Of a DNA stretch of 64,000 nucleotides, positions 20,183 to 59,887 are shown one piece after another. How positions within the stretch are numbered: the first letter of the stretch is position 1; the number at the start of each line of letters is the position of its first letter. The notes under the pieces were generated by a model, which worked only from the letters and a program-made list of their open reading frames with translations, had not been told where the DNA came from and made no database searches. The translations under genes were made by a program, and so were the position numbers. The DNA comes from Micromonospora sp. NBC_01740 (GTDB lineage Bacteria; Actinomycetota; Actinomycetes; Mycobacteriales; Micromonosporaceae): contig NZ_CP109150.1 in NCBI RefSeq assembly GCF_035920365.1, positions 4,278,001-4,342,000 of the forward strand, read 5' to 3'.

Positions 20183-20516
20183 GCTTCACCTCGCGGGGCG
20201 TGGCCCTGTCCCGACAAGGCCCGATGACTGGTCCACCGCAGTCTTACTACGCCCGCGACGTCGGGCGAACCGGCGGTGGCCGTGGCGCGGCGGACTAAGG
20301 GGTGGCTAGGGGCTGTTAGGGGCGGTGACCGCGCGTCCGCTTCGGTTACCGTCCTCCCTGCCGAAGCGACGCCGCCGGCTCCAACGGAAGCGTCACCTAC
20401 CTCGAACCGGCCATCGGCGCCCCGGTGCGCCCGGACCGCGTGCCGGCGGTACCCGGTCGTCCCGCCCGATGGTCCGGCGAAGCCCCTGGTCTGCCCGAGT
20501 TGGGAAGTGGGAAGTC
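20183..20516. promoter_or_regulatory. Divergent AHBA promoter region with three phased TAGGGG elements
   Basis: The 334-bp region between rifJ-like and rifK-like genes has no gene. Its main feature is three elements, TAAGGGG, CTAGGGG and TTAGGGG, whose GGGG blocks start at 20299, 20309 and 20319, exactly 10 bp apart. They therefore face the same side of the DNA helix. They lie about 115-140 bp from the rifJ start and 195-220 bp from the rifK start. The same element occurs at three other cluster promoters in this window. Binding by a pathway activator is inferred. Confidence 0.7.
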
Positions 20517-21680
20517 ATGAGTGGTCAGCCCTCGACGGTGTCGGAGTTCCCCGAGTGGCCGCAGTTCGGCGACGAGGAGCGCGCCGGACTGATCCGCGCC
20601 CTCGAACAGGGGCAGTGGTGGCGGATGGGCGGCAGCGAGGTCGACTCCTTCGAGAAGGAGTTCGGTGACTACCACGGCACGCCGCACGCGCTCGCCGTCA
20701 CCAACGGCACCCACGCCCTCGAGGTCGCCCTGGAGGTGCTCGGCGTCGGGCCGGGCACCGAGGTGATCGTCCCGGCCTTCACGTTCATCTCGTCCTCGCT
20801 GGCCGCGCAGCGCCTCGGCGCGGTCGCCGTGCCGGTCGACGTCGACCTCGACACCTACTGCATCGACCCGGCCGCCGTCGAGGCCGCGATCACCCCCCGC
20901 ACCAAGGTCGTCATGCCGGTGCACATGGCCGGTCAGTTCGCCGACATGGACGCGCTGGACAAGCTCGCCGCCGACGCGGGGGTGGCGGTGCTCCAGGACG
21001 CGGCGCACGCCCACGGCGCGCAGTGGCAGGGCAAGCGGTCCGGGGCGCTCGGCTCGGTGGCCGCGTTCAGCTTCCAGAACGGCAAGCTGATGACCGCCGG
21101 CGAGGGCGGGGCGGTGCTCTTCCCCGACGAGGAGCTGCGCGAGCGGGCGTTCCTCGTGCACAGCTGCGGCCGGCCCCGCACCGACCGGGACTACCTGCAC
21201 GGCACCACCGGCTCGAACTACCGGATGGGCGAGTTCACCGCCGCCGTGCTGCGCGCCCAGCTGTCCCGCCTGGACGAGCAGATCGCGCTGCGCGAGCAGC
21301 GTTGGCCGCTGCTGTCGAGCCTGCTCGCCGAGATCCCCGGCGTGGTTCCGCAGACCACCGACCCCCGTACCGACCGCAACCCGCACTACATGGCGATGTT
21401 CCGCGTCCCCGGGATCACCATCGAGCGCCGCCGCGCCGTGGTCGACGCGCTCATCGCCCGGGGCGTCCCGGCGTTCGTGGCGTTCCGGGCGATCTACCGG
21501 TGCGAGGGCTTCTGGAAGGCCGGCGCCCCCGACGAGTCGGTCGAGGCGATCGCGGCCCGCTGCCCCAACGTCGAGCAGATCCACTCCGACTGCATCTGGC
21601 TGCACCACCGCACCCTGCTCGGCACGGAGCAGCAGATGCACGAGATCGCCGCCGTGCTCGCCGACGTCCTCGCCGGATGA
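20517..21680 (+). CDS. rifK: AHBA synthase / UDP-3-keto-glucose aminotransferase (RifK-like)
   Basis: The 387-residue protein is a DegT/DnrJ/EryC1 PLP enzyme, nearly the same length as RifK. Signature segments are VTNGTHALEVAL, IVPAFTFISSS, QDAAHAHGA and FSFQNGKLMTAGEGG, with Lys190 as the PLP lysine. In rifamycin and related pathways it has two roles: with RifL it makes UDP-kanosamine, and it aromatises aminodehydroshikimate to AHBA. The start has GGGAAG close upstream. The stop overlaps the next ATG. This gene is the best single marker that the cluster makes an AHBA-derived product such as an ansamycin. Confidence 0.95.
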   Translation: MSGQPSTVSEFPEWPQFGDEERAGLIRALEQGQWWRMGGSEVDSFEKEFGDYHGTPHALAVTNGTHALEVALEVLGVGPGTEVIVPAFTFISSSLAAQRLGAVAVPVDVDLDTYCIDPAAVEAAITPRTKVVMPVHMAGQFADMDALDKLAADAGVAVLQDAAHAHGAQWQGKRSGALGSVAAFSFQNGKLMTAGEGGAVLFPDEELRERAFLVHSCGRPRTDRDYLHGTTGSNYRMGEFTAAVLRAQLSRLDEQIALREQRWPLLSSLLAEIPGVVPQTTDPRTDRNPHYMAMFRVPGITIERRRAVVDALIARGVPAFVAFRAIYRCEGFWKAGAPDESVEAIAARCPNVEQIHSDCIWLHHRTLLGTEQQMHEIAAVLADVLAG

Positions 21681-22810
21681 CGGCCCTGCCCCCGGCCGCC
21701 GCGCCCGACCGACCGGTGCGGGTCGCGGTGGCCGGCCTCGGGTGGGCCGGGCGGGAGATCTGGCTGCCCCGGCTCGCCGCGCATCCGGGCTTCGAGGTGA
21801 CCGCCGTGGTCGACCCGGAGCCCGGCGTACGCGACCGGGCCCGCGCCACCCACGACGTTCCGTCCGCGTACGCCGACGTCGACGACCTGCCCGCCGGGGC
21901 GGTCGACCTGGTGGTGGTCGCCGTACCGAACCACCTGCACGCCACCGTGGCGGTCCGGCTGCTGCGCCGGGGCGTACCGGTGTTCCTGGAGAAGCCGGTC
22001 TGCCTGACCTCCGCCGAGGCGACCCTGCTGGCCGACGCGGAACGCGACGGCGGCGCGGTGCTGCTGGCCGGCAGCGCCGCCCGCTACCGGGCCGACATCC
22101 GGGCCCTGACCGGGGTGGCCGCCGAGCTGGGCCCGATCCGGCACGTCGACGTGGCCTGGGTCCGCGCCCGGGGGGTGCCCGACGCGGGCGGCTGGTTCAC
22201 CCGGCGCGACCTCTCCGGCGGGGGAGCGCTGGTGGACCTCGGCTGGCACCTGCTCGACACGGTGCTGCCGATGCTCGGCCCGACCCGGGTCACCCACGCC
22301 ATCGGCAGCGTCTCCGACGACTTCGTCAACGACAGCGCCGCCCACGCCGCCTGGCGCAGCGACACCGGCGCCGGTGGTCGCGCCCCCGGGGACGTCGAGG
22401 ACACCGCCCGGGGCTTCCTGCTCACCGCCGAGGGGACCTCGGTCGCCCTGCACGCCTGCTGGGCCTCGCACGAGTCGCTGGACCGCACCACTGTCACCGT
22501 GCACGGCGCCGCCGGATCGGCGACGCTGCGCTGCACGTTCGGCTTCAGCCCCAACCGGGAGCCGGCGCCGGTGCTGACCCGCACCCGGGACGGCGAGACC
22601 GTCCGGCTGTCGCTGCCCGAGGAGCCGATCGGCGCCGAGTACGACCGCCAGCTCGACGAGCTGCCCGCGCTGCTCGCCGACCCGGCGTCGCGGGGCGCGG
22701 CCGTCGCCGAGGCCCGCCGGACCATCGACATCATCGAACGGATCTACCAGTCCGCCCGGCCCACCGCGCCGGAGCGGCAGCACGCGCTGGCGGGCCATCG
22801 CGACCGGTGA
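21677..22810 (+). CDS. rifL: GFO/IDH/MocA oxidoreductase (RifL-like)
   Basis: The 377-residue protein has an N-terminal NAD-binding Rossmann fold (VAGLGWAGREIW) and the family EKP motif (FLEKPVCLT). A C-terminal alpha/beta domain includes LVDLGWHLLD. RifL oxidises UDP-glucose to UDP-3-keto-glucose for RifK. It overlaps the AHBA synthase gene by ATGA and is followed 37 bp later by the rifM-like gene, the same K-L-M order as in the rifamycin cluster. Confidence 0.92.
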   Translation: MTALPPAAAPDRPVRVAVAGLGWAGREIWLPRLAAHPGFEVTAVVDPEPGVRDRARATHDVPSAYADVDDLPAGAVDLVVVAVPNHLHATVAVRLLRRGVPVFLEKPVCLTSAEATLLADAERDGGAVLLAGSAARYRADIRALTGVAAELGPIRHVDVAWVRARGVPDAGGWFTRRDLSGGGALVDLGWHLLDTVLPMLGPTRVTHAIGSVSDDFVNDSAAHAAWRSDTGAGGRAPGDVEDTARGFLLTAEGTSVALHACWASHESLDRTTVTVHGAAGSATLRCTFGFSPNREPAPVLTRTRDGETVRLSLPEEPIGAEYDRQLDELPALLADPASRGAAVAEARRTIDIIERIYQSARPTAPERQHALAGHRDR

Positions 22811-22847
22811 GAACCACCGTCGGCCACACTCGCTTCCGGGAGCAGCC

Positions 22848-23543
22848 ATGAGCCATCCATCGTCCACCGTCGAGGTGACCCCGCCGTCGCCGGGCCGCGG
22901 CCCGATCCGCGCGGTCGTGTTCGACCTCGACGGCGTCATCGTCGACAGCTCGGCCGTCATGCGTGAGGCGTTCAGCATCGCGTACGCCGAGGTGGTGGGC
23001 GACGGGCCGGCGCCGTTCGAGGAGTACAACCGGCACATGGGCCGGTACTTCCCGGACATCATGCGGCTGATGGGGCTGCCCCTGGAGATGGAGGAGCCGT
23101 TCGTCCGGGAGAGCTACCGGATGGCCCACCTGGTGCCGCTCTTCCCCGGCGTCCGGGAGACCCTGGAGACGCTGCACTCCCGGGGGATCCGGATGGCGAT
23201 CGCCACCGGCAAGGCCGGCCCCCGGGCCCGCTCCCTGCTCGACCAGCTCGGCGTGCTGGGCCTCTTCGGTCAGGTGATCGGCTCCGACGAGGTGGCCCGC
23301 CCGAAGCCCGCCCCGGACATCGTGCTCCAGGCGCTCGGCCACCTCGACGTGCCGCCCGGCCAGGCGATGATGGTCGGCGACGCGGTCATCGACCTGCTCA
23401 GCGGCCGGGACGCCGGGGCGACCGCGGTGGCCACCACCTGGCACGGCGGGGACGTCGCCGCGCTGCTCGCCGCCGGCCCCGACCTGGTCGTGCACGCCCC
23501 GACGGAGCTGCTCGCGCACTGCCCGGCGGCCCTCGTCCACTGA
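22848..23543 (+). CDS. rifM: HAD-family phosphatase (RifM-like)
   Basis: The 231-residue HAD-IA protein has motif I VFDLDGVIVDS, a motif II Thr in IATGKAGP, motif III Lys in RPKPAPD and motif IV VGDAVIDLLSGRDAG. In AHBA biosynthesis RifM-type phosphatases release kanosamine from its UDP form or act on related phosphates. The gene completes the K-L-M set and has a GGGAG site before its ATG. A bidirectional hairpin follows. Confidence 0.92.
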   Translation: MSHPSSTVEVTPPSPGRGPIRAVVFDLDGVIVDSSAVMREAFSIAYAEVVGDGPAPFEEYNRHMGRYFPDIMRLMGLPLEMEEPFVRESYRMAHLVPLFPGVRETLETLHSRGIRMAIATGKAGPRARSLLDQLGVLGLFGQVIGSDEVARPKPAPDIVLQALGHLDVPPGQAMMVGDAVIDLLSGRDAGATAVATTWHGGDVAALLAAGPDLVVHAPTELLAHCPAALVH

Positions 23544-23599
23544 GACCCGCCCGCCCGCTCCCCGTCGTGACGGGCGCGACCCGAACCTGTCGTGCACGT

Positions 23600-23626
23600 C
23601 CGGCCCGCCCTGAACAGGCGGGCCGG
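23600..23626. terminator. Bidirectional hairpin between convergent genes
   Basis: A perfect 10-bp inverted repeat (23600-23609 with 23617-23626) has a seven-base loop. It lies between the rightward rifM-like gene and the leftward M23 peptidase and can stop transcription from both sides. Confidence 0.72.
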
Positions 23627-23678
23627 GACACCGTCCGGAGTCCCCGCCCGCCTGTCCGGTGTGCCCGGTCGGGTCGGT

Positions 23679-24461: not shown

Positions 24462-24578
24462 GGAAATCACCTCCGACTGGCCCGCCGGGGGCGGGCGATA
24501 GATCATCATCGACAGCGGTGATGCTAGCCCCGGCGGAAGCCGTGGCGATACACGTCGATAGGGGCCCCTGAAGCGCTC

Positions 24579-27500
24579 TCAGTGCGCGCCGTCGACGGCC
24601 CCGGGTCCGGCTTCCAGGAAGCGCAGCATGGCGGTGGCCAGGATCTCGGCGACGGGGGCCGGGACCAGGTCGGTGCGGATGGTGACGCGCAGGAGGGCGC
24701 CCCCGTCGCCGGGAAGCACCTCGGCGACGCAGGAACCCGACCACTCCCGGGCGTACGGCTCGACGACCTCCTCGGTCCGGCAGCCGGGCAGCTCCAGCGG
24801 CAGCACCACGTTGTCCTGGTAGGCGAACGAGGGCATGCTGTTGGCCACCTCGCGGGACATGCCGAGGACCGGGTCGACGGTCATCTCCACGAAGGAGACG
24901 TCCTGGGCGGCCATCAGCGCGTCCGCGGTGCGCTGGACCGCTCGGATCAGGTCCTTCTCCGGCCCGTCGAAACGGACCCGCAGGCAGTTGGAGGTGATCC
25001 TGCTCGTGAAGGTGGAGTCGAGGATCCGGCTGCCGCGCTGGGCGACGATCATCAGCAGGGCGATGTCGTCCTGCTGGTGGATGGTGCGCAGCGCCGAGGC
25101 GTAGGCGGCGGCGAAATAGGTGGAGCGGCTGAACCGCTGTTCGCGGGCGGCCCGGTCCCAGCGGTCCAGCACCTCCGGAGGGACGGTGACGATGTGCCCG
25201 GTCCGAGGGCCCCAGGTCGGGGTCTGCTCCAGCAGCGACTGCGGCCGGCCCTCGCCCTGGCGGGCGAGGCCGCGCAACTGCTCGCGCCAGTAGTCGCGCT
25301 GCGCGTCGAGGTCGGTGGCGGCCCGCAGGCGGGTGTGCTCGTCGTGGAACTGGCGCAGCGTGGGCGCGGGGCGGTCCCAGCATGGCGCCCGGCCGGCCAG
25401 GCGGGCGGCGTAGGCGTGGCCGAGGTCGCGGACGAGCAGCGCGTGTGACCAGCCGTCGAAGGCGATGTGGTGGATGCCGATGCCGAACAGGATGCGCCCG
25501 GTCGACCTGTCGCGGATGAGCGCGGCCCGCCAGTTGCGGCCCTGGGTGTAGTCCAGCGGCTGCTGCACGGCCTCGGCGAGCTGGTCGAGGGCCTCCTGCT
25601 TGCTGGTGGCGTCGGTGAGCAGTCGCAGCTGCGGCATGCCCGGCTTCGGTGGGACGACGGCCACGGGGGGGTCCACCCGCCGGTAGCGGGCGTACAGCGC
25701 CTCGTGCCGGCGGTGCACGTCGCCGAGCGCCGCCATCAGCGCGCGCAGGTCCAGCTCGCCCTCGATCCACCAGGTGGTCGGGCAGACCAGGTCGAAGGGG
25801 AGCCAGACGAACTTGCCGACCGACAGGGTCAGCGGGACGGGCCCGGCCGGGCCGGGACGGCCGGTGACGGACGGTTCCGGTTCGGCCGGGGGACGGCGGG
25901 GCGCGGTGGTGAGCCAGTGCGCCAGGCCGTGCGGGGTGGGCGTGCGGTGGATCTGCGAGACGGGTACGACGACGTCGGCGGCCTCGTCGACGGCCGCGGC
26001 GACGGCGGCGGACTGCAGGGAGGTGCCGCCGAGGGCGAAGAAGCTGTCCCGCGTGCCGACCCGGTCGATGCCGAGGACGGTCGCAAACACTCCGGCCACG
26101 AGACGTTCCTCGTCGGTGGCGGCCTCGACGTAGTCCACGCCGAGGTCCGGGCGCTGCGGGCCCGGCTCCGGCAGCGCCCGCCTGTCGATCTTGCCGGTGC
26201 CGCCGACGGGGAACCGGTCGAGGACCATGATCACGGCGGGGACCATGTACGGGGGCAGCACACCCGAGGCGTGCTCCCGCAGCTCGGTCACGGCCGGCTT
26301 GCGGCCGTCGCGGCCGGTCACGTAGCCGACCAGCCGGGCGACGCCCCGGTCCTCGCGGCGGACGACCACGGCCGTGCCGACGCCCGGGTGCTGTTCGAGG
26401 ACGGCCTCGATCTCGCCGAGCTCGATGCGGATCCCGTTGACCTTCACCTGGTGGTCCATCCGGGCGAGGATCTCCAGCGCCCCGGAGGCGTTCCACCGGC
26501 CCAGGTCGCCGGTGCGGTAGGCGACCCCGCCGCCGTACGGGTCGGTGACGAACCGTTGGGCGGTCAGCTCGGGTCGGTTGAGGTAACTGTCGGCGACCCC
26601 GGCGCCGGTGATGAGGATTTCGCCGGCCACGCCCATGGGGACGAGGTCGAGGTTGGCGTCGACGACGCGGATCTGCCGGTTGGGCATGGGCCAGCCGATC
26701 GGCACGTACGCGCCGCTCCAGCCGGCCGACGCGTCGAACCACGTGCACGCCACGGCGGCCTCGGCGGGCCCGTACGCGTTGATCAGGCGCGCGCCGGCCG
26801 CGATCCACCGTTGCGCCATGCGCGGCGGAACGGGCTCCCCGGCGAGGGTCACGCAGGACATGCTCGGGCAGTCGGCCGGGTCCACGGCGGCGAGGTTGGT
26901 GGGCGGGCAGAACGCGTGGGTGGTCTCCTCCTTCGCGATCAGCTCCGTCAACCGGCGGGCGTCGAGCAGGTCGTCGCGGGAGCTGACGACGACGCGGGCG
27001 CCGGAGGTCAGCGCGGTGTAGATCTCGCCGAGGGCGACGTCGAAGACCGGCGCGCAGCAGTGCAGCATCCGGCTGTCCGGGCCGACCGCGCACTCGTCGC
27101 GCATCCAGGTGACGAAGTTCGTCAGCATGTCGTGGGTCAGCACGACGCCCTTCGGCGTGCCCGTGGAGCCGGACGTGTAGATCACGAACGCCGGCCGGGA
27201 GGCGTCCACGACCGGCAGCTCGCCCGCTTCGGCCGCCTCCACGGCGGACCACTCGTCGTCGAGGGCGACCACCTTGACGCCGTCCGGGCGCGGGATGCGT
27301 GGGGCGACCTCGCCGACGGTGAGCACGACCCGGGCGCCGTGGTCGGCCAGCAGCAGCCGCATCCGCTCCGCCGGCCAGGACACGTCCATCGGCGTGTACG
27401 CCGCGCCCGCCCGCAGCACGGCCAGGGTGGCGACGAGGGTCAACATGCCGCGGTCCAGCGCCAGCGACACCACGTCCCCGACGCCGACACCGGCGGAGCG

Positions 27501-28283
27501 CAGGTAGCGGGCGAGCAGCTCCGAACGGCGTGCCAGTTCCGCGTACGTGACGACCTCGCCGTCGGCGACGCCCGCGATCGCGTCCGGCGTGCGGCGCGCC
27601 CACTCCAACACCAGCTCGTGCAGCGGCTCGGCCGGCACCGGGCGGACCGGACCCCGGCCCCACGCGAGCAGCCGCTCCCGATCGGCCGCGCCCAGCAGCG
27701 GCAGCCCGGACAGCGGGACCTCGGGTTCCCGCACGCCGGCCGATAGCAGCGTCACGGTCTGGTTCAGCAGGCCCCGCACCCAGTCCGCGGAGAAGCCCTC
27801 CGCCGTGTGGTCCGCCCGCAGCCCGGACCCGTCCGAGGCCACGCTGACCATCAGGTCGACGTCCACCGTCTCCGGGCCCACGCCGGGCACCGGGCCGTCG
27901 ACCAGGTCGACCGCCACCGGGCCCACCACACCCGCACCCGCCGCCGGCGCGGCCCACGCCGCACGCACCCGGCCCACCAGCTCACCGAACGCCGGATCGT
28001 CCGCCACGCCCACCCGCAGCACCGTCCCGCCCGAGGACAGGCCGAGCGCCACCTCCTCCTGACCGGTGTAGCGGGCCAGCACCCCGACGAGGCCCGCCAG
28101 CACCACCAGTCCCGCCGGCTCCGGGCCCGCCAGGTCGGGTAGCGCGAGCGTACGCAGCTCGGACGCCGCCCGGGCCGGCCACGCCAGCGGCCGGCGCAGG
28201 TCACCCATCAGGTCGAGGGCCTCGAAGTCGGGCCCCGCGACACCCGCGGTCGGGGCCTGGGCACCTACGAGCCCGACGGACAT
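24579..28283 (-). CDS. NRPS 1: half-condensation / adenylation / carrier / condensation
   Basis: The protein has 1234 residues. Residues about 25-200 resemble only the C-terminal lobe of a condensation domain (VLARYTGQEEVALGLSS onward) and lack the HHxxxDG lobe. The adenylation domain (about 215-705) has YTSGSTGTPKG at 369-379 and the catalytic Lys near 698 (GGTGKID). The carrier domain has Ser755 in LGGTS. A complete condensation domain (about 815-1234) has an intact HHIAFDG at 938-944. By hand alignment to GrsA the pocket reads D-V-G-F-T-A-A-V-A-K, which I cannot match to a known substrate. It is the last of three leftward paralogues, 84 bp after NRPS 2. No epimerase or thioesterase is present. 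Confidence 0.92.
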   Translation of the reverse strand: MSVGLVGAQAPTAGVAGPDFEALDLMGDLRRPLAWPARAASELRTLALPDLAGPEPAGLVVLAGLVGVLARYTGQEEVALGLSSGGTVLRVGVADDPAFGELVGRVRAAWAAPAAGAGVVGPVAVDLVDGPVPGVGPETVDVDLMVSVASDGSGLRADHTAEGFSADWVRGLLNQTVTLLSAGVREPEVPLSGLPLLGAADRERLLAWGRGPVRPVPAEPLHELVLEWARRTPDAIAGVADGEVVTYAELARRSELLARYLRSAGVGVGDVVSLALDRGMLTLVATLAVLRAGAAYTPMDVSWPAERMRLLLADHGARVVLTVGEVAPRIPRPDGVKVVALDDEWSAVEAAEAGELPVVDASRPAFVIYTSGSTGTPKGVVLTHDMLTNFVTWMRDECAVGPDSRMLHCCAPVFDVALGEIYTALTSGARVVVSSRDDLLDARRLTELIAKEETTHAFCPPTNLAAVDPADCPSMSCVTLAGEPVPPRMAQRWIAAGARLINAYGPAEAAVACTWFDASAGWSGAYVPIGWPMPNRQIRVVDANLDLVPMGVAGEILITGAGVADSYLNRPELTAQRFVTDPYGGGVAYRTGDLGRWNASGALEILARMDHQVKVNGIRIELGEIEAVLEQHPGVGTAVVVRREDRGVARLVGYVTGRDGRKPAVTELREHASGVLPPYMVPAVIMVLDRFPVGGTGKIDRRALPEPGPQRPDLGVDYVEAATDEERLVAGVFATVLGIDRVGTRDSFFALGGTSLQSAAVAAAVDEAADVVVPVSQIHRTPTPHGLAHWLTTAPRRPPAEPEPSVTGRPGPAGPVPLTLSVGKFVWLPFDLVCPTTWWIEGELDLRALMAALGDVHRRHEALYARYRRVDPPVAVVPPKPGMPQLRLLTDATSKQEALDQLAEAVQQPLDYTQGRNWRAALIRDRSTGRILFGIGIHHIAFDGWSHALLVRDLGHAYAARLAGRAPCWDRPAPTLRQFHDEHTRLRAATDLDAQRDYWREQLRGLARQGEGRPQSLLEQTPTWGPRTGHIVTVPPEVLDRWDRAAREQRFSRSTYFAAAYASALRTIHQQDDIALLMIVAQRGSRILDSTFTSRITSNCLRVRFDGPEKDLIRAVQRTADALMAAQDVSFVEMTVDPVLGMSREVANSMPSFAYQDNVVLPLELPGCRTEEVVEPYAREWSGSCVAEVLPGDGGALLRVTIRTDLVPAPVAEILATAMLRFLEAGPGAVDGAH

Positions 28284-28286
28284 GGG

Positions 28287-28300
28287 TCAACCTCCGATCA
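28287..28300 (-). promoter_or_regulatory. Conserved ribosome-binding leader of NRPS 1
   Basis: On the minus strand this reads TGATCGGAGGTTGA just before the ATG. The same leader precedes NRPS 2 (32067-32080) and, over 13 bases, NRPS 3 (35891-35903). It supports the starts and shows the duplications included the translation signals. Confidence 0.8.
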
Positions 28301-28367
28301 GGACCGGCACCACCGGCAGGGGGTACGGCCGGGTCAGGAAACCAGGAACAGGTGCGTGTACGGGCGG

Positions 28368-32063
<3,696 letters not shown>

Positions 32064-32066
32064 CAG

Positions 32067-32080
32067 TCAACCTCCGATCA
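32067..32080 (-). promoter_or_regulatory. Conserved ribosome-binding leader of NRPS 2
   Basis: The minus-strand sequence TGATCGGAGGTTGA is identical to the NRPS 1 leader and sits three bases before the NRPS 2 ATG. Confidence 0.8.
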
Positions 32081-32189
32081 GGCCCGGCGTCGCCTGCGGG
32101 GGTACGCCGGGGAAGAACCACGAACTCCGGGGACGCGGCCCGCGCGCCCACGGCCATGACAAGCAGCCCGATGTGTACGGGGTGGACGG

Positions 32190-35100
32190 TCAACCGGTGG
32201 TGGGTGAGCCCGCCGGCCCGGCTTCCAGGAAGCGCAGCATGTGCCCGTTCAGCTCCTCGGCGAAGCTGTACGGCAGGTAGTCGGTGCGGATGGTGACGCG
32301 CAGGAGGGCGTGGTCGGCGCGGGGAAGCACCTCGACCGTGAGCCCGTTGGGCACCTCCCGGGCGTACGGGTCGACGACCTCCTCGGCCCGGCAGCCGGGC
32401 AGTTCCAGCGGAAGCACCACGTTGTCCTGGAACACGAAGGTCGGCAGGCTGGCGACCACCTCGCCGGAGAGCCCGGCGGCGGGGTCGTCGGCGGTCTCCG
32501 CGAAGGGGACGTCCTGGGCCCGCATGAGGTCGCTGATCGTCTCGTTGACCCGCAGGACGAGTTTGTCGTCCTCCGGCCCGTCGAAGCGCACCCGGACGCA
32601 GTTGAGGTTCAGCCGGGTGGTGAAGGCGGAGTCGAGGACGCGGCTGCCCCGCTTGGCCACCACCATCAGCAGGCCGATGTCATCCTGCTGGTGGACGGCG
32701 CGCAGCGCGGAGGCGAACGCCGCGACGAAGTAGCTGGACCGGCTGAACCGCTGCTCCCGGGCGGCCCGGTCCCAGCGCTGCATGACCTCCGGCGTGACGG
32801 TGACGGTGTGCCCGGCCTTCGGACCCCACGCCAACGCCTGCTCCAGCGGTGCGGTGGCGTCGCCCCGGCCCTGGCGGGGCAGGCCGCGCAGTTGTTCGCG
32901 CCAGTAGGCCCGCTGCGCGTCGAGGTCGGCGGCGTCGCGCAGCCGGGCGTACTCCTCGTACGACTGGCGCAGCGTCGGCGCCGGCCGCGCCCACACGGGG
33001 GCCGCGCCCGACAACCGCGCCGCGTAGGCGTGGCTCAGGTCCCGCACCAGCAGCGCGTACGACCAGCCGTCGAAGGCGATGTGGTGGATGCCCACGCCGA
33101 ACAGGACCCGCCCGGTCGACTTCTCCCGGATCAGGGCGGCCCGCCAGACGCGGCCCTGGGTGTAGTCGAGCGGCTGCTGCACCGCCTCGGCGAGCTGGTC
33201 CAGGGCCTCCTGCTCGCTGGCGGCGTCGGTGAGCAGCCGCAGCTGCGGCATCGCCGGGTTCGGCGGGACGAGCGCCACCGGGGGAGCCGTCCGCCGGTAG
33301 CGGGCGTGCAGGGCCTCGTGCCGGCGGTGCACGTCGCCCAGCGCCGCCATCAGCGCCCGCAGGTCCAGCTCGCCCTCGATCCACCAGGTGACCGGGACGA
33401 CGACCTCCGGCGGCGACATCAGGCACTTCGCGACCTGCTGCGCGAGCGGAACCGGGCCGGGACGCTGACGGGCCTGCCCGGCGGTCGAGCCGGCGTCCGT
33501 ACGGCGGGGCGCGGTGGTCAGCCAGTGGGCCAGCGCCTGCGGTGTGGGGGTGCGGTGGATCTGCGAGACGGGCACGACGACGTCGGCGGCCTCGTCGATG
33601 CGCGTCGCCACCGCCGCCGACTGCAACGACGTGCCACCCAGGTCGAAGAAGCTGTCGCCCGTGCCGACCCGGTCGATGCCGAGGACGGTCGCGAACACGG
33701 CGGCGACGAGGCGCTCCTCGTTCGTCGCCGGCTCGACGAACTCCACCCCGAGGTCGGGGCGCCGGGTGTCGGGTGCGGGCAGGGCCCGCCGGTCGACCTT
33801 GCCGGTGCCGCCGACGGGGAAGTGGTCGAGGACCATGACGACGGCGGGAACCATGTAGGACGGGAGCACGGTGGCGGCGTGCGCGCGCAGGTCGCCGACG
33901 GCGGGGGTACGGCCGTTGCGTCCGGTGACGTAGGCGACGAGTCGGGCGGTGCCGTCGTCCTCGCGGCGCACGACCACGGCGGCGCCGACGTCGGGGTGCC
34001 GGGCGAGGGTGGTCTCGATCTCGCCGAGTTCGATGCGGATGCCGTTGACCTTGACCTGGTGGTCCATCCGGCCGAGGATCTCCAGCGCGCCGGTGGCGTT
34101 CCACCGTCCGAGATCGCCGCTGCGGTAGGCGGTGCCGCCGCCGTACGGGTCGGTGACGAAGCGTTCGGCGGTGAGTTCGGGGCGGTTGAGGTAGCCGTCG
34201 GCGACCCCGAAGCCAGCGATGAGGATTTCGCCGGGTACGCCCATCGGGACGAGGTCGAGGTTGGCGTCGACGACGCGGATCTGCCGGTTGGGCATGGGCC
34301 AGCCGATGGGCACGTACGCGCCGCCCCAACCCGCCGACGCGTCGAACCACGTGCACGCCACGGCGATCTCCGCCGGCCCGTACGCGTTCACCACCCGCGT
34401 GCCCGCCGTCAACCACCGCTGGGCCAGCTGCGGCGGGACGGCCTCGCCGCCGAAGATGATGCAGCGCAGACCCGGGCAGGCGGCCGGATCGAGCGGGGCG
34501 ACGTTGGTGGCCGGTCCGAACGTGTGGGTGACGTCGTGCCGGTTGATGAGGTCGGTGAGCCGACGCGCGTCGAGCAGGTCGTCGCGGGAGCAGACGACGA
34601 CGCGGCCACCACCGGTGAGCGTCGCGAAGATCTCCCCGAAGGCGGCGTCGAAGACCGGTGCCGCCGAATGCAGCATCCGGCTGTCGGGGCCGATGGCGCA
34701 CTCGTCGGTCATCCACGCCAGGAAGTTCGTCAGCCTCTCGTGCGTCAGCACGACACCCTTGGGCGTGCCCGTCGAACCCGACGTGTAGATCACGAACGCC
34801 GGCGCGGACGCCGGCACCACCGGCAGGTCCACCGGCTCACACGCCCGCACCACCGGCCAGTCGTCATCCAACGCCACCACCGACACCCCGTCGCCACCGG
34901 GAATCCGGGGCGCGACCGCACCGACGGTCAACACCACCCGGGCGCCGTGGTCGGCCAGCAGCACCCGCATCCGCTCCACCGGCCACGACACGTCCATCGG
35001 CGTGTACGCCGCGCCCGCCCGCAGCACACCCGTCGTCGCCACCAACGACCACAGTCCGCGTTCCAACGCCACGGACACCACGTCACCGGCGCCCACGCCC

Positions 35101-35888
35101 ACCGACCGCAGATACGCCGCCAGCGCGGCCGACCGGCGATCCAGTTCCCCGTACGTCAACACCTCATCGCCGGCGACACCCGCCACCGCCTCCGGCGTGC
35201 GCCGCGCCCACTCCAGCACCAGCTCGTGGATCGGCTCGGCCGGCACCTCACGCACCGGGCCCCGGCCCCACTCCAGCAACCGCTCCCGCTCCGCATCGCC
35301 CACCAACGGCAACGCCGACAACCCCACCTCCGGCCCCGCCAACCCGGCGGAGACCAGCACCACGACCTGGTCCACCAGGCCCCGCACCCACTGCGCCGAG
35401 TAACCCTCCGCCGCGTAGTCCACCCGCAGCGCCGACCCGTCCGAGGCCACACCGATCACCAGGTCGACGTCCACCACTGCCGGCCCCGCGTCCGCCACCG
35501 GAGCGTCCACCAGCCCGAGCACCACCGGGCCCACCGGCTCCCGGCCCACGGCCACCGGCGCCGCCAGCGCCGCGCGCACCCGCGTCACCAACTCGCCGAA
35601 ACCCGGATCACCCGCCACGTCCACCCGCAGCGCCGAACCGCCGCCACCGGACGCCAGGCCCAGCACCACCTGCTCCTGGGCCGTCCAACGGGCCAGCACC
35701 GCCACGACCCCCGCCACCACGACGTCGCCGCCCAGCCCGTCGTTCGGCGGCGAGGAGGGCAGCACCCGGTGCACCGAGGCGGCCCGGGCCGGCCACACCG
35801 TCGGCCGGCGCAGGTCCCCCACCAGGTCCAGTGTTTCGGCGTCGACCGCGCCGTCCACGGTCCGCGCACCATCGAACCCGACAGACAT
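32190..35888 (-). CDS. NRPS 3: half-condensation / adenylation / carrier / condensation
   Basis: This 1232-residue protein shares the layout of NRPS 1 and 2: C-lobe remnant, adenylation, carrier (LGGTS) and complete condensation domain with HHIAFDG. Its adenylation domain differs from the other two mainly between motifs A3 and A5, where FDAAFGEIF and IIFGGEAV replace FDVALGEIY and VTLAGEP. The hand-read pocket is D-A-G-F-I-G-A-V-A-K, so it probably loads a different substrate. It is the first NRPS of the leftward operon. Its ATG overlaps the TGA of a small upstream frame (TGATG). TAGGGG-type elements lie about 350 bp upstream. Confidence 0.92.
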   Translation of the reverse strand: MSVGFDGARTVDGAVDAETLDLVGDLRRPTVWPARAASVHRVLPSSPPNDGLGGDVVVAGVVAVLARWTAQEQVVLGLASGGGGSALRVDVAGDPGFGELVTRVRAALAAPVAVGREPVGPVVLGLVDAPVADAGPAVVDVDLVIGVASDGSALRVDYAAEGYSAQWVRGLVDQVVVLVSAGLAGPEVGLSALPLVGDAERERLLEWGRGPVREVPAEPIHELVLEWARRTPEAVAGVAGDEVLTYGELDRRSAALAAYLRSVGVGAGDVVSVALERGLWSLVATTGVLRAGAAYTPMDVSWPVERMRVLLADHGARVVLTVGAVAPRIPGGDGVSVVALDDDWPVVRACEPVDLPVVPASAPAFVIYTSGSTGTPKGVVLTHERLTNFLAWMTDECAIGPDSRMLHSAAPVFDAAFGEIFATLTGGGRVVVCSRDDLLDARRLTDLINRHDVTHTFGPATNVAPLDPAACPGLRCIIFGGEAVPPQLAQRWLTAGTRVVNAYGPAEIAVACTWFDASAGWGGAYVPIGWPMPNRQIRVVDANLDLVPMGVPGEILIAGFGVADGYLNRPELTAERFVTDPYGGGTAYRSGDLGRWNATGALEILGRMDHQVKVNGIRIELGEIETTLARHPDVGAAVVVRREDDGTARLVAYVTGRNGRTPAVGDLRAHAATVLPSYMVPAVVMVLDHFPVGGTGKVDRRALPAPDTRRPDLGVEFVEPATNEERLVAAVFATVLGIDRVGTGDSFFDLGGTSLQSAAVATRIDEAADVVVPVSQIHRTPTPQALAHWLTTAPRRTDAGSTAGQARQRPGPVPLAQQVAKCLMSPPEVVVPVTWWIEGELDLRALMAALGDVHRRHEALHARYRRTAPPVALVPPNPAMPQLRLLTDAASEQEALDQLAEAVQQPLDYTQGRVWRAALIREKSTGRVLFGVGIHHIAFDGWSYALLVRDLSHAYAARLSGAAPVWARPAPTLRQSYEEYARLRDAADLDAQRAYWREQLRGLPRQGRGDATAPLEQALAWGPKAGHTVTVTPEVMQRWDRAAREQRFSRSSYFVAAFASALRAVHQQDDIGLLMVVAKRGSRVLDSAFTTRLNLNCVRVRFDGPEDDKLVLRVNETISDLMRAQDVPFAETADDPAAGLSGEVVASLPTFVFQDNVVLPLELPGCRAEEVVDPYAREVPNGLTVEVLPRADHALLRVTIRTDYLPYSFAEELNGHMLRFLEAGPAGSPTTG

Positions 35889-36154
35889 CAGCTCAACCTC
35901 CGATCGAGAGGGGGTGACCGGAAGGCACGGGGCCTCGGTACCGCACCACCGGGCGCATTCCGGTCGGCGCGGCAGGGGCGGTTCGCGGGCACCGCGGCCG
36001 ACTCGGGTGGCCGGGCGCGGACATGCGGTGCGACCAGGACGGGGTCACCGTCCGAATTCCGGGTCGCCACCACGTCGTCGATCGAAAGGAGCAGGTCGGT
36101 GCCCGATCCGATCACCGGCGCCTCCCGTCCGTCCGGGGCGCCGCGCACCCACAC
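35888..36154 (-). CDS. Possible small protein translationally coupled to NRPS 3
   Basis: A frame of 88 residues starts at GTG 36154 and ends at a TGA overlapping the NRPS 3 ATG (TGATG), an arrangement typical of coupled genes. Third-position GC is about 83% by hand count. The centre reads like protein (SGTDLLLSIDDVVATRNS), while the Arg/Pro-rich C-terminus is less convincing. It is not an MbtH protein, since the conserved Trp pattern is absent. The TAGGGG-type elements lie 80-108 bp upstream of its start, a spacing similar to other cluster genes. I do not recognise a family. It may instead be untranslated leader. Confidence 0.35.
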   Translation of the reverse strand: MWVRGAPDGREAPVIGSGTDLLLSIDDVVATRNSDGDPVLVAPHVRARPPESAAVPANRPCRADRNAPGGAVPRPRAFRSPPLDRRLS

Positions 36155-36953
36155 TCGTCCCCGCCCGGTGCAATGAAAGGGAACGACGAACCGATGGGGC
36201 CCGACCCTACGAAGCGCGGTGGAGTGGCGTACACCCCTAGAGATGCGCACGTCGACCCCTAGGGTGACGGCCGGAGATTCCGGCCGGGGGCCGCCGAGGA
36301 TACGTCCGGAGCAATGACCGACCACCGGTCCGCGTCCCGTGTCCTCGCCGCCGGATCGGCAATTTGCGCTGGTCAGTGTGGTGTTCTCTGCTGATGATTG
36401 ATCAGGATCGCGGCCAGATGCCGCGAATTTTTCGGCATTAACACACGCGGCTATATCTTTTCTATAGTGGATGGTTGGCGCCCTCCGGCAGGGTCGATGC
36501 ACGAATGTCCGGGTTTCGACGGAGAACGATCCCGGGGTCTAAGTCGAAAAAGGCTATTCGGTCAGCCCAGGTCCAGGGTTCGAATCGGAGAATTGGCGAT
36601 CCCGGCGACGGAAAGGGCCGCCCGCGGTCGGCTGACCGGCCCATCCCACGGAAATGAGGATTGACTATGCTTTGCCGATCATGACCCAGTCGGTGACTGG
36701 CAAATTCAGCCACCGCCTGTTGGTGTGCACCTCGCCGAACGCAGCGCTGACCACAAGCCAGCCCGCTACCTGGCCGGTCTCGCCAGAGACCGGCCGGCCG
36801 GTGCACGCGGTACGCCCGACTCTCGTGGCCGAGCGGCCTCATCAGGACCGGGAGCGCCTGCGACCGTCCACGTTCTCCGCAGTTCGTGGTCGTTGCGCAC
36901 CCGGACTCCGTGCCACCCGAGGCCCTTCGTGGGCCGGCATGTCAGGAGATCCA
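36155..36953. promoter_or_regulatory. Long intergenic region with TAGGGG-type elements and an AT-rich promoter zone
   Basis: CCCCTAG occurs at 36234-36240 and 36256-36262, 22 bp apart, with a weaker ACCCTAC 20 bp to the left (36214-36220). On the minus strand these read CTAGGGG toward the NRPS operon. Position 36361-36480 is AT-rich for this genome and includes CTATAG, a possible -10 for the rightward ATP-grasp gene. From 36480 to 36953 I see no reliable gene. A frame continuous with the ATP-grasp extends back to 36654 but is poorly supported. Confidence 0.55.
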
Positions 36954-38144
36954 ATGGACGGACCTATCCAGGTACAGGTGTTCGCTCACGACGGGGTGGT
37001 CCTGGCCCGGCCACCCGATCCGGTGACGACCGCCGGCAGCCGCTATCTCGCCGGTGCGGGCGCCGCCCTGTACAACGGGCTGGACATGATCACCGGTCTG
37101 CACCTGACCCTTCCGCACCAGTCGGCGGCCATTTGCAGCACCGGCTCCAGCGCGGACAAGTCGCTGCGCCTGCTCAGTCGGTGCGGTCTCAAGACGCCCA
37201 GCGACCTGCGCGAGTTCCGCTCCGGCGCGCAGGCGGTGCAGTTCGCCCGGGACGCCGCCGAGCGGGGCGAGACGCTGGAGTTCCAGTTCCCCCCGCACGA
37301 TCCGCAGTTGCGGGCCGCGCGGGCCCGGGTCGCCCCGGACCTGCTGGCCCGCCTCAACAACAAGACCACCCTGGAAACACTGATCGCGCCGGAATACCTG
37401 CCCCGTCGCCAGGTCGCCACCCCCGCCGAGGTACGCCGCATCGTGCAGCAGGACCGGCGGCCGGCGGTGCTAAAACCGGCCGGCGTCGAGGTGTACAGCG
37501 GGATCGCGATCTTCACGAGGCGGTTGCAGGACCGGCGGCACCGGTCCCTGTTCAACCAGCTGGAACAGGTGAGCGATCGGTGGATCGTCGAGGAGGAGGT
37601 GCCCTTCCGGACGATCTGGGGCGTCCAGTTCGGCGTGACGGAGAGCGGAGCGGTGCAGTACTTCGGTGCGTCCGTACACCTGCCGCAGCCCACTTCGACG
37701 TGGGTCGGTTGTGTGCTGGACGACGACCAGCCGCCGGCGGAGCTGATCGAAGCGCTGACCGTAGGGGTCCGAAAGGCCAGTGCCCTCGGGTACCGCGGGT
37801 ACTGCTCCTTCGACGCCGGGATCGGTCGGGACGGCGCCCTGCGGGTCATCGACCCGAACTTCCGGGTCAGTGGGGCCACCACCTCGCTGCTGCACCGCAG
37901 TTCGCTGCTGGGGCAGCACCCGTGCGCCATGACGACGTTCTTCTCGCTGGCCCCCGGCGTCGACGCCGAGCCGATCCTCGCCCCGTTCATCGACCGGGGG
38001 CAGTTCGTCGCGTTCATGCACCACGACCCGGCGGAGACGGACAACGGCCCGCTGCCGGCCACCATCGTCGGCATGGTCGGCGCTGCGGACCGGTACGCCT
38101 GCGGGGTGCTGGTCGCGCAGATCCAGCGGGCACTGGGCGGTTGA
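36954..38144 (+). CDS. ATP-grasp family carboxylate-amine ligase-like protein
   Basis: The protein is 396 residues from the ATG at 36954, which has AGGAG five bases upstream. An ATG at 36939 is a near alternative. The central part (about 165-330) has ATP-grasp features: PAVLKPAG with a candidate ATP-binding Lys, RWIVEEEVPF, and a metal-binding segment ending RVIDPNFRVSGATTSLL. The family joins a carboxylate to an amine or thiol through an acyl phosphate. Members include amino-acid ligases and peptide-natural-product ligases. The closest named family is unclear to me. It is divergent from the NRPS operon and followed 114 bp later by a hydrolase. A role in amide formation for the product is plausible. 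No precursor peptide was found. Confidence 0.8.
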   Translation: MDGPIQVQVFAHDGVVLARPPDPVTTAGSRYLAGAGAALYNGLDMITGLHLTLPHQSAAICSTGSSADKSLRLLSRCGLKTPSDLREFRSGAQAVQFARDAAERGETLEFQFPPHDPQLRAARARVAPDLLARLNNKTTLETLIAPEYLPRRQVATPAEVRRIVQQDRRPAVLKPAGVEVYSGIAIFTRRLQDRRHRSLFNQLEQVSDRWIVEEEVPFRTIWGVQFGVTESGAVQYFGASVHLPQPTSTWVGCVLDDDQPPAELIEALTVGVRKASALGYRGYCSFDAGIGRDGALRVIDPNFRVSGATTSLLHRSSLLGQHPCAMTTFFSLAPGVDAEPILAPFIDRGQFVAFMHHDPAETDNGPLPATIVGMVGAADRYACGVLVAQIQRALGG

Positions 38145-38258
38145 CGCGTCGTCCCTCTCCGGGCCGTGGTGACGGTCCGGAGGGGAGGCCCGACCGACCA
38201 CGGCGGCGCCCGTCCCGCCCGGGGGAAAACGCCGTGCGCGCTCGCCGGCGCCGCGGCC

Positions 38259-39140: not shown

Positions 39141-39172
39141 GCCGGGCTGCCGGCGGTGTCGGGTGCCGGCCG

Positions 39173-40213: not shown

Positions 40214-41030
40214 GTGGCTGCTGCCTCCTCTTGACGACGGGCACCGGTGCGGCGGCGACCGGGCGTTCCCGGACCATCGACAGGCGCAGCGCCAGCGCGG
40301 CCAGCGAGTCGACGTCCGGCCCGATGCCCCAACGGTCGTGGGTGAGCTGGGCGTGGTGCGCCAGCAGGAAGCCCGACGGCGCCGCCGGGTGGTGCCGGCC
40401 GACCACGTCGGTCACCCGGTCCAGGTAACGCCGCCAGGCCACGGCGACCTCCCCGCACAGCGGCAGGTCGCCGGCCGCCAGGACGATCTTCTCCGCGCCG
40501 GCGTCCGCCTGCGCGGCCAGGTCCCGCCGCTGCGCGGCGGTCAGCCGCTGGCTGCGTTCCTGCCAGTGCAGGAAGAGGAACGCCAGCCGGTCGGCCGCCG
40601 GCACCAGCCCCGTCAGGTACCGCAGGTGCGCCACGGCCAGCGGCAGTTCGACGCCGGCCAGCCAGGGAGTGTCCCCGCCGAGCAGGGTCAGGGCCAGGTC
40701 GCTGCCCGCCGACGCGAGCGGGCCGCCCCGGGCGGCGTCGCGCACCACGTACCGGTCGGCGGCGAAGGAGACCCCCGGGTCGTACGCGAGCAGCCCCGCC
40801 CGTACCGCGTCGAGCGCGGCCGGGGCGGCGTGGAAGCCGAGGCTCACGTGCGGCCCGGCGGGGGAGCCCTCCGGGTCGAAGAACCAGTCCATGCCCGGAT
40901 CGGCCCGGCGGGCGGCGGCGACCAGACCGGCGAGGACCGTGCCGACCAGCTCGGTCACCCGCGTGTCCGGGGACCCGTCGGCCGGCACGGCCGAGCGGGC
41001 GAACAACCAGCAGCGTTCCAACGACGGCAC
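40194..41030 (-). CDS. LanB C-terminal (SpaB_C / thiopeptide-type) domain-like protein
   Basis: The 278-residue protein resembles stand-alone members of the lantibiotic dehydratase C-terminal family, also called thiopeptide-type bacteriocin biosynthesis domains. Matching features are an early CWLFARS strand, a WFFDPEGSPAGPHVSLGFH segment like the family's RYADPxPHLRLR, and a late HHAQLTHDRWGI segment like its HMHxNRL. In RiPP pathways this domain eliminates glutamate or catalyses pyridine-forming cycloaddition. No LanB N-terminal partner or precursor peptide is in the window. It is translated ahead of, and overlaps, the aminoDHQ synthase, and it shares the regulated region with PKS1. Its role here is unknown. 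The assignment is by pattern only. Confidence 0.65.
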   Translation of the reverse strand: MPSLERCWLFARSAVPADGSPDTRVTELVGTVLAGLVAAARRADPGMDWFFDPEGSPAGPHVSLGFHAAPAALDAVRAGLLAYDPGVSFAADRYVVRDAARGGPLASAGSDLALTLLGGDTPWLAGVELPLAVAHLRYLTGLVPAADRLAFLFLHWQERSQRLTAAQRRDLAAQADAGAEKIVLAAGDLPLCGEVAVAWRRYLDRVTDVVGRHHPAAPSGFLLAHHAQLTHDRWGIGPDVDSLAALALRLSMVRERPVAAAPVPVVKRRQQPHAPVRT

Positions 41031-41256
41031 CTCGGCTGACGGGCGGGTGGAGCACAGGACTCGACGGTCTGCGGGGGAGTGGCCCCATCATCGGCCTGCG
41101 GCCCGTCCCACCACCTGATCAGCGGTCCGAACTGGGGACGACTTAGGGGGTGACAGGGGTAGGACGCCGGCAGGGTGCTCGGAAGACTTGGGCCGCTACG
41201 GCGAGCGGGGTCTACGCCGCGGATGAGAAGTCTCGCCGACGGACGGATGTGGTGAC
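41031..41256. promoter_or_regulatory. Divergent PKS1 promoter region with TAGGGG elements
   Basis: TTAGGGG at 41143-41149 and ACAGGGG at 41153-41159 have GGGG blocks exactly 10 bp apart, with another CTGGGG just before (41132-41137). They lie about 100-115 bp before the PKS1 ATG and a similar distance from the leftward LanB-like gene. No gene is visible in the spacer. Confidence 0.7.
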
Positions 41257-56196
<14,940 letters not shown>

Positions 56197-56275
56197 TGGC
56201 CGCCCGGCCGCGCCGCACGGCGCGAGCCGTCCCTTCCGACACCGTGTCCGACCGACCCCCGAGGAACCGATACCG

Positions 56276-57853: not shown

Positions 57854-57882
57854 TCGGCATCCACCCCTCGGAAGGAACCCAC

Positions 57883-58770: not shown

Positions 58771-58777
58771 CGCCCCG

Positions 58778-58835
58778 CACGGACGAGGGGCCCGCCGACC
58801 GGTCGTGACACCGGTGGACGGGCCCCTCGTCCGTG
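58778..58835. terminator. Large bidirectional hairpin terminator
   Basis: A perfect 17-bp inverted repeat (58778-58794 with 58819-58835) encloses a smaller ACCGGT hairpin. It lies between the convergent methyltransferase and thioesterase genes, eight bases past the methyltransferase stop and just before the thioesterase stop. Confidence 0.8.
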
Positions 58836-58838
58836 GGA

Positions 58839-59600
58839 TCAGACGGCGGGCGCCGCGGTCAGGGCCGTCGAGATGGCCCGCAGGACCGCCGGCTGGTGCT
58901 CGGCCAGGAAGAAGTGCCCGCCCGGGTAGACCTTCAGGTCGAACGGCCCGGTGGTGTGGGTCGACCAGGCCCGGGCCTCCTCGACCGTCGTCTTCGGGTC
59001 GTCGTCGCCGGTGAAGACGGTGATCGGGCAGCTCAGCGGCGGACCCGGCCGGTAGGTGTAGGTCTCCGCCGCCCGGTAGTCGCTGCGGATCGCCGGCAGC
59101 GCGGCCCGCAGCATCTCCGGGTCCCCGAGGACGGCGGAGTTGGTGCCGCTGAGCTTCCGGACGTCGGCCAGCAGGCCCTCGTCGTCGAGCAGGTGCACCG
59201 TCTCGTGCCGCGCCTGCGACGGCGCACGGCGTCCGGACGCGAACAGGTGCGCCGCCGTACCGCCGTCCTGCTCGATCAGCCGGGCGAGTTCGAAGCCGAC
59301 GCTGGCCCCCATGCTGTGCCCGAAGATGGCCACCGGCTCGTCCAGCCACGGCCGCAGCACGGTGAAGACCTCCCGCGCGAGCTGGTGGATGTCACCGATG
59401 CACTTCTCGTGGCGGCGGTCCTGCCGGCCCGGGTACTGGATCGACAGCACCTCGACGGCGGGGGAGAGGCTGCGGGAGACGGGGAAGTAGAAACTGGCCG
59501 ACCCGCCGGCGTGGGGCAGGCACACCAACCGCCTGGCGCCACCCGGAGCCGGGTGGAAGCGTCGCACCCACAAGCCGTTGTCGGTATTTGGCGTGGTCAT
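58839..59600 (-). CDS. Type II thioesterase (RifR-like)
   Basis: The 253-residue editing thioesterase has LVCLPHAGGSASFYF near residue 26, the nucleophile Ser96 in FGHSMGA, a late Asp in FTGDDDPK and catalytic His in YPGGHFFL. Such enzymes remove stalled or wrong acyl groups from PKS and NRPS carriers. RifR does this in rifamycin synthesis. It is divergent from PKS2 across a region with TAGGGG-type elements. Confidence 0.95.
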   Translation of the reverse strand: MTTPNTDNGLWVRRFHPAPGGARRLVCLPHAGGSASFYFPVSRSLSPAVEVLSIQYPGRQDRRHEKCIGDIHQLAREVFTVLRPWLDEPVAIFGHSMGASVGFELARLIEQDGGTAAHLFASGRRAPSQARHETVHLLDDEGLLADVRKLSGTNSAVLGDPEMLRAALPAIRSDYRAAETYTYRPGPPLSCPITVFTGDDDPKTTVEEARAWSTHTTGPFDLKVYPGGHFFLAEHQPAVLRAISTALTAAPAV

Positions 59601-59887
59601 CCTTGGCGGTCCTTCCAGCGGCTGCGTTTCCCGACCGGATCTGCACGGACCCGGTCGAGGCGACGCTAGTGCGACGGGTGGGGACCGGACACCCCTAGCT
59701 GGCCCGTTGCCTGGTTAGGGGTTGTCCGCGCTCGCGCACACCCAATAACTTCTCCCCGCAGATGGGGATCTGCGTGGCTCTCGGCCGAGCGAGCCGAACG
59801 ACAGATACAGGTGTCGCCTGAGACTTCTGCGCATTCGTACCGTCGCTTACGTCGAGTCTCCGCCGTGAATCGCGATGGGCTGGGTTG
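59601..59887. promoter_or_regulatory. Divergent thioesterase/PKS2 promoter region with inverted TAGGGG elements
   Basis: CCCCTAG at 59692-59698 and TTAGGGG at 59715-59721 form an inverted pair separated by 16 bp. They lie about 95 bp from the thioesterase start and 170 bp from the PKS2 start. The CCCCTAG copy is oriented as if toward the thioesterase and the TTAGGGG copy toward PKS2. A less GC-rich stretch with AATAAC follows at about 59745. No gene is visible. Confidence 0.7.

Follow-up and report, generated by a model that had tools for sequence, protein, structure and literature searches.

A YTAGGGG element at the promoters of a quinolidomicin-type cluster of Micromonospora, a candidate operator of a LAL-family activator

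The cluster and the copies of the element

The DNA analysed here, called the window throughout, is a stretch of 64,000 nucleotides from Micromonospora sp. NBC_01740 (C1:4278001-4342000 of the 7,317,348-base genome), and the element in question is the heptamer YTAGGGG, copies of which lie before genes for 3-amino-5-hydroxybenzoic acid (AHBA), nonribosomal peptide synthetases (NRPS) and polyketide synthases (PKS). In the 404 kb read around and including the window, for which genes were called, a cluster extends from about 18 to 245 kb (positions are relative to the window unless stated otherwise), in which PKS positions are taken by 13 open frames of 1666-9943 aa. The calls come from our own codon-usage script, so that gene starts are approximate, and 92% of the 404-kb region is called coding. 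By its genes it is a quinolidomicin-type cluster of about 225 kb, and its first fifth lies within the window. The first PKS (41257..56196, plus strand, 4979 aa), similar to qnmA1, has an AMP-ligase loading part and two extension modules; its domains, CoL-ACP followed by KS/AT/DH/KR/ACP and KS/AT/DH/ER/KR/ACP, correspond to the published qnmA1 layout (PMC8698034; statements on cited papers refer to the portions of each that were available to us). PKS domains were checked in this gene and in part of the second. The Micromonospora qnm cluster likewise has 13 PKS-sized genes, the same type of first PKS and a length of more than 200 kb, and its orthologs are stated to be widespread in the genus (PMC8698034).

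Within the window, the element stands before the AHBA synthase operon as TAAGGGG at 20296, CTAGGGG at 20306 and TTAGGGG at 20316, in 10-bp steps (20296..20322, plus strand), and a –10-like TACCGT (20347..20352, plus strand; TAGCGT in some relatives) begins 31 nt from the first base of the 20316 copy. The genes that follow, each present in 8/8 relatives, encode by Pfam match an AHBA synthase-like DegT/StrS aminotransferase (20538-21680), a GFO_IDH_MocA oxidoreductase (21677-22810) and a HAD phosphatase (22875-23543), all on the plus strand; their assignment to AHBA, with its parallels to the rif genes, is presumed by us. Two CTAGGGG copies 22 bp apart (CCCCTAG at 36234 and 36256; 36234..36262, minus strand) precede three tandem NRPS genes (24579..35888, minus strand, 72-80% identical to one another), with TAGGGT at 31 nt from the 36234 copy. 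The first PKS is preceded by TTAGGGG at 41143 and a degenerate ACAGGGG at 41153, 10 bp apart (41143..41159, plus strand), and AAGACT starts 30 nt from the degenerate, proximal copy. Finally, a CTAGGGG (59692..59698, minus strand) with TAGCGT at 30 nt points towards a thioesterase gene (58839-59525, minus strand), and a TTAGGGG (59715..59721, plus strand) with TAACTT at 31 nt points towards a qnmA2-like PKS gene that starts at 59888 (plus strand).

All of these copies had been named, with their 10-bp and 22-bp spacings, in an earlier note on the window, and each was found again; also as it had described, the four sites lie between divergent starts (20182-/20538+, 35888-/37023+, 41006-/41257+ and 59525-/59888+, by our gene calls). 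Its distance of 80-220 bp to the nearest starts fails for the NRPS site, which is 346-368 bp from the NRPS start, and the inverted pair that it reported at 59692/59715 is present and is here reread as two divergent promoters. It had not seen the element before the des operon, which holds: the sole TTAGGGG there, at 8749, is part of TTAGGCTACCCTCCCCTAA (8737-8755), which precedes a siderophore-interacting protein gene and resembles what we take to be the iron-box consensus, and it was rejected as a look-alike. Of the eight relatives' stretches, which start at varying upstream distances, only two contained orthologs of the siderophore genes (8784 and 14326).

Beyond the window, copies occur at 84945 and 84966 before a phosphoesterase gene (85095; TAGGGT at 31 nt from 84966), at 86034 before PKS A4 (gene 86280; TACCGT at 30 nt), three times in 143619-143648 before PKS A6 (gene 143867; TACCTT at 31 nt), at 225186 (minus strand) before an ABC exporter (gene 225253), at 232202 before LAL1 (gene 229099-231921, minus strand), which codes for a large ATP-binding regulator of the LuxR family (LAL), at 236775 before an AMP-ligase gene (236944; TAATTT at 31 nt) and at 244009 before a DUF5988 gene (244208; TANNNT at 41 nt). 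The four units that had been predicted to be under common control (AHBA, NRPS, PKS1 and PKS2) are thus included, within a set of about ten transcription units over about 225 kb rather than four. An insertion of four genes, one for a PrsW-like protease, lies before PKS A6 (138895-142108, locus L006), with the neighbouring array of the element intact; no ortholog of it was called in the clusters of the eight relatives.

Location, register and conservation of the element

The genome avoids the word: YTAGGGG occurs 99 times in its 7.3 Mb, about 0.9 times per 64 kb, as against eight copies in the window. The reversed pattern, used as control, is far commoner for YTAGGGG (1283), for YTAGGGGT (197) and for the direct pair (10), and the evidence therefore lies in the location of the word and not in its abundance. 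Sixteen of the 99 copies fall in the 224 kb spanned by the cluster sites (genome positions 4298306-4522016), where 3.0 are expected (binomial P 6e-8), and so do 11 of the 38 copies of YTAGGGGT (P 1e-8), both P values being optimistic because the outermost cluster sites served to delimit the span. All four genome-wide matches to the direct pair YTAGGGG-N(0-30)-TAGGGG are within the cluster; a looser TAGGGG-N(2-6)-TAGGGG has five, four of them in the cluster and one at genome position 302778, and the inverted pair CCCCTA-N(0-30)-TAGGGG is found at one further place in the genome (217100). Several of the 99 copies belong to identically spaced sets that resemble repeated operons. By our gene calls all 16 cluster copies are intergenic, as are the other two in the 404 kb; 11 of 36 intergenic stretches of the cluster contain a copy as against 1/80 in the flanks, a control that leaves out 8000-20182 of the window with its copy at 8749. 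TAGGGG is the top hexamer of the cluster's intergenic DNA (23 seen, 2.0 expected), and the enrichment at this cluster that a genome scan was predicted to reveal is borne out. A GC-rich word noticed by eye might be there by chance, and in dinucleotide shuffles of the window the single TAGGGG shows no enrichment (10 seen, 10.8 expected); that shuffle test is uninformative for single copies, for which the genome counts were used instead, and the genome-wide location, together with the conservation and register described below, refutes chance, the probability of which we consider negligible.

The element keeps a fixed distance to a –10-like box. Among 133 intergenic YTAGGGG of nine stretches (own genome and eight relatives, from the AHBA region onward, with sites within called genes or before that region dropped), TANNNT starts at 30 nt from the first base of the heptamer in 21 and at 31 nt in 41 (62/133), and at offsets below 30 nt in 0/133. 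Other peaks, at 41 and 51-54 nt, belong largely to upstream copies of the same arrays, in phase, and neighbouring NWAGGGG copies are spaced by 10-12 or 20-22 bp in 65/70 cases. The nine genomes being related, each promoter counts as one independent unit, and in the own genome the TANNNT is found at 30-31 nt at eight promoters (AHBA, NRPS, thioesterase, qnmA2, 85095, A4, A6 and AMP-ligase). None of the three YTAGGGG in 460 kb sampled elsewhere in this genome has a TANNNT within range. With TANNNT fixed at 30-31 nt, the heptamer would abut the –35 region, and we infer the –35 and –10 roles of the boxes from this spacing. A fixed distance to a –10-like box might also be taken to mean that the heptamer is itself the –35 element of an alternative sigma factor, but a –35 would have to stand closer to the –10 box than the 30-31 nt measured from the heptamer start, and the copies repeat in helical phase and stand in reverse orientation at two promoters, so that we hold this explanation to be very unlikely.

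Most of the sites are conserved in the eight relatives (G103, G031, G034, G012, G024, G033, G072 and G140), in which LAL2, the protein encoded beside LAL1, is 95 to 63% identical; the fractions that follow count the own genome, giving nine. An exact YTAGGGG is found in 9/9 at the AHBA operon, qnmA1, the divergent qnmA2 and thioesterase promoters, 85095, the exporter and the AMP-ligase gene, in 8/9 at LAL1 (ATAGGGG in G031; TAGGGG in 9/9), in 7/9 at the DUF5988 gene and in 5/9 at A4, where the remaining four have GTAGGGG. At A6 it is found in 6/9 when orthologs are taken by best hit and in 8/9 with G012 and G072 counted by position, none being seen in G024. In orthologous promoters of the relatives the heptamers are kept while spacers and flanks change, and at the AHBA promoter the number of 10-bp units differs among genomes with the phase kept. 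The NRPS genes form part of a facultative block (24579-38144), consisting of two or three tandem NRPS genes and a divergent gene, the latter with a sub-threshold match to the amino-acid ligase model LdmS, and the block is present in five of the nine quinolidomicin-type clusters. Its promoter carries YTAGGGG in 5/5 genomes with the NRPS, and the site is absent in the 4/9 genomes without it; the co-occurrence supports the view that the NRPS operon is tied to the AHBA polyketide cluster, as had been proposed, the block being apparently wired into the cluster regulon by a box of its own.

LAL1 and LAL2 as candidate readers

A LuxR/LAL or SARP (Streptomyces antibiotic regulatory protein) regulator had been expected nearby, and two LALs are encoded at the far end of the cluster: LAL1, about 165 kb beyond the window, and, beside it, LAL2 (232697-235549, minus strand). 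The proteins, of 940 and 950 aa, both have AAA_16 and GerE matches above cut-off, in keeping with the LAL architecture of some 900-1000 aa with an AAA ATPase (Walker A/B) at the N terminus and a GerE helix-turn-helix at the C terminus, and G-x4-GKT and VDD are invariant in three aligned LALs. From 4160 to 4885 kb of the genome, about 350 kb to either side, GerE has no further match (E <= 0.001). Apart from a cold-shock protein gene present in 4/8 relatives, no additional DNA-binding regulator was seen among the scanned cluster genes; the scan did not extend to PKS genes 3-13 or to the small genes inserted at 138895-140666. For 54 genomes of the genus, per-genome counts give 130 direct pairs for the 27 in which LAL2 has an ortholog (4.8 each; at least one in 27/27) and 55 for the 27 in which it has none (2.0 each). 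In one relative the LAL2 ortholog match is split into two overlapping pieces (G008:C1:2811507-2814354), perhaps by a frameshift or an assembly error.

Taken together, the enrichment, the conserved sites and the two LALs support the single activator that the earlier note had predicted for the set, the element presumably being read by one LAL or by both. The element is probably the operator of a pathway-specific LAL-family activator, LAL1 being the best candidate, which would make the cluster one regulon by class II activation; the identity of the reader and the activation are deduced from sequence. One protomer of the activator would bind YTAGGGG immediately before a weak –35 region, which often reads TTGTSN, and, with the heptamer placed 30-31 nt before the TANNNT –10 box, would touch RNA polymerase in the class II manner. 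Where further heptamers lie upstream, at a distance of one or two helical turns (10-12 or 20-22 bp), they may dock more protomers on the same face of the helix. With this box shared by about ten promoters, those of the AHBA starter genes, the PKS genes and the exporter among them, the cluster would form one regulon, which the facultative NRPS block would join by carrying its own box.

Possibly, though we are rather doubtful of it, both LALs are needed, either as a mixed oligomer or in a cascade from LAL2 to LAL1 to the boxes. Such an arrangement would suit the presence of both genes side by side in 8/8 relatives and the site upstream of LAL1, because of which LAL1 may itself be a target, and geldanamycin has a published two-LAL cascade (PMC6784220). 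It is opposed by clusters elsewhere in which the same grammar is accompanied by a single LAL match (see below), so that one LAL can suffice, and by the recognition helix, which is TVSTVEQHLTR in LAL1, a form common in LALs of other clusters, and deviates in LAL2 (TVSAIEQRLTR). A correlation between helix and sites (15/35 loci against 1/34) was withdrawn, the helix pattern having missed LALs ending in TRTYRKL, including the LAL of S. akebiae, whose cluster has sites.

It is unlikely that a regulator encoded elsewhere, such as a SARP, a response regulator or a global factor, reads the element. In favour of such a reader, the genome as a whole has 51 GerE matches, the AHBA genes are preceded at about 33 kb by the gene for an AfsR-like SARP, and heptameric direct repeats are reminiscent of SARP sites. 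Against it, copies of the box gather at this cluster, and the box turns up again close to LAL genes in unrelated clusters and genera. The SARP gene (–15143 to –12192; L002:4857-7808) adjoins a YcaO locus of the ribosomally synthesized and post-translationally modified peptide (RiPP) type, no YTAGGGG occurs in the 25 kb before the window, and only partial matches of 37-42% to it were found in 2/8 relatives' stretches, which reach 16-38 kb before the AHBA genes. It was set aside as the reader. The direct repeats of the element are heptameric, but no SARP is among the cluster genes scanned, and the element was not classed as a SARP operator. Two short precursor-like peptides were seen by eye in the YcaO locus.

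The arrangement at other LAL loci and in known systems

Around LAL genes of named genomes, 79 loci were fetched, from which 10 were dropped as the same cluster type (chosen by organism and identity, Micromonospora with 67-93% to LAL1, and not by a check of each cluster) and 69 kept. At these, TANNNT stands at 30-32 nt from 20/89 YTAGGGG, as against 5/1988 for six permuted control heptamers counted in these same loci (P 2e-24, an optimistic value because some loci are homologous to one another). The 16 contributing loci come from Streptomyces, Micromonospora, Saccharothrix, Actinomadura, Nonomuraea, Winogradskya, Kutzneria, Acrocarpospora and Herbidospora. An unrelated PKS cluster of genome G149 (100 kb read), with one LAL match, has sites at several promoters: two of its nine YTAGGGG have TANNNT strictly at register, three more are in-phase upstream copies and one lies inside a gene.

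Plasmids matched LAL1 in 20 records, of which three (H1, H2 and H7) were fetched, chosen only by similarity to LAL1. In two PKS clusters on Streptomyces plasmids, each having a single LAL1-like match (57 and 56%), CTAGGGGTTGNCN boxes lie 88-189 bp ahead of PKS genes and are followed by TANNNT at 30-32 nt. The stretches read cover about 193 of 292 kb of H1 and 84 of 228 kb of H2, and 3/6 and 1/2 of their YTAGGGG, respectively, have TANNNT strictly at 30-32 nt; the stretches flanking the LAL genes (L225 and L226) contain no YTAGGGG, and the composite boxes were seen in four further stretches with PKS promoters. The two clusters, in L225, L228, L229 and L231 (NZ_CP080648.1) and in L226 and L230 (NZ_CP109246.1), are large, of the type I PKS kind, and include a glycosyltransferase; the Streptomyces plasmids that bear them are linear.

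On this basis YTAGGGG abutting the –35 region, 30-32 nt before TANNNT, could be an operator code widely shared by the LAL activators of polyketide clusters in actinobacteria, beyond the present one, a proposal that we regard as evenly poised between right and wrong. Several results weigh against it or against LAL1 as the reader. No YTAGGGG occurs in the stretch read at 27/69 LAL loci and no composite box at 53/69; either the code does not hold everywhere or the promoters lay beyond the flanks read. The third plasmid locus (L227, 37% identity) has two YTAGGGG and no composite box in the stretch read, and in genomes with a LAL paralog (38-44% to LAL2) the pair lies 2.1-3.3 kb upstream of the LAL in only 8/20. 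In G149 a response-regulator-like gene, recognized by eye, lies about 3.6 kb from the LAL, so that another reader is possible there. In the cluster itself, the register is lacking at the exporter and LAL1 sites; of the 133 sites, about half have no TANNNT at 30-31 nt, and some have none in range at all. LAL1 and LAL2 always co-occur in the nine clusters; the common helix, being near universal among the LALs compared, cannot single out LAL1; and at least one direct pair is also found in 21/27 genus genomes without a LAL2 ortholog.

Among known systems, MalT of Actinoplanes sp. SE50/110, from the same bacterial family, is a MalT-like LuxR regulator that activates a large region through a box that overlaps, at a fixed position, the –35 of 17 start sites (PMC7567727). 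The box proposed here would have the same class II placement, at a fixed position next to the –35 of the predicted promoters, but MalT reads a palindrome, TCATCC-5-GGATGA, whereas a single asymmetric heptamer with in-phase direct repeats is seen here, in an antibiotic cluster, and its sequence is not the GGA(T/G)GA of MalT. PAS-LuxR regulators such as PimM, which share the LuxR-type DNA-binding domain, also have their box in the –35 region (CTVGGGAWWTCCCBAG; PMC9774167), and its half-site resembles CTAGGGG. The reader proposed here differs in being a LAL, and its Pfam matches include no PAS domain; inspection of the aligned promoters by eye, with no pattern search run, showed no 16-bp PimM palindrome at the heptamers. 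In protein architecture and proposed role LAL1 agrees with the LAL activators of PKS clusters (MilR, AveR, PikD, GdmRI/RII and FkbN), of which MilR and AveR are reported to act directly on promoters of their clusters (PMC5015266). The difference is that no operator consensus is given for those LALs in the text available, while an operator and its promoter register are proposed here. Our literature search found no paper describing a TAGGGG-type LAL operator, a footprint in subscription papers (for example on SlnR, NemR or RapH) being possible. In the main text of PMC8698034, words beginning with 'regulator' or 'AHBA' occur 0 times; a LAL1 ortholog is present in M. okii TP-A0468, a strain treated in that paper.

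For many of the largest antibiotic clusters the switch is a LAL activator, and the reviews and papers, as available, give no general operator for these regulators. If the proposal is true, a box with a fixed register that recurs across genera would predict LAL regulons from sequence, including those of many silent clusters, and could guide their activation. It would also help to decide cluster borders and which distant genes belong, here with the NRPS in and the siderophore neighbours out, and would give a simple picture of one protein coordinating about ten transcription units across 225 kb.

Other genes of the cluster within the window include one for a ROK protein (18361-19296), conserved and without a helix-turn-helix match, and a dehydroquinate-synthase family gene (39173-40213, minus strand; Pfam). 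Beside the first PKS, a 270-aa protein with a sub-threshold Lant_dehydr_C match (40194-41006, minus strand) is conserved in 8/8 related clusters.

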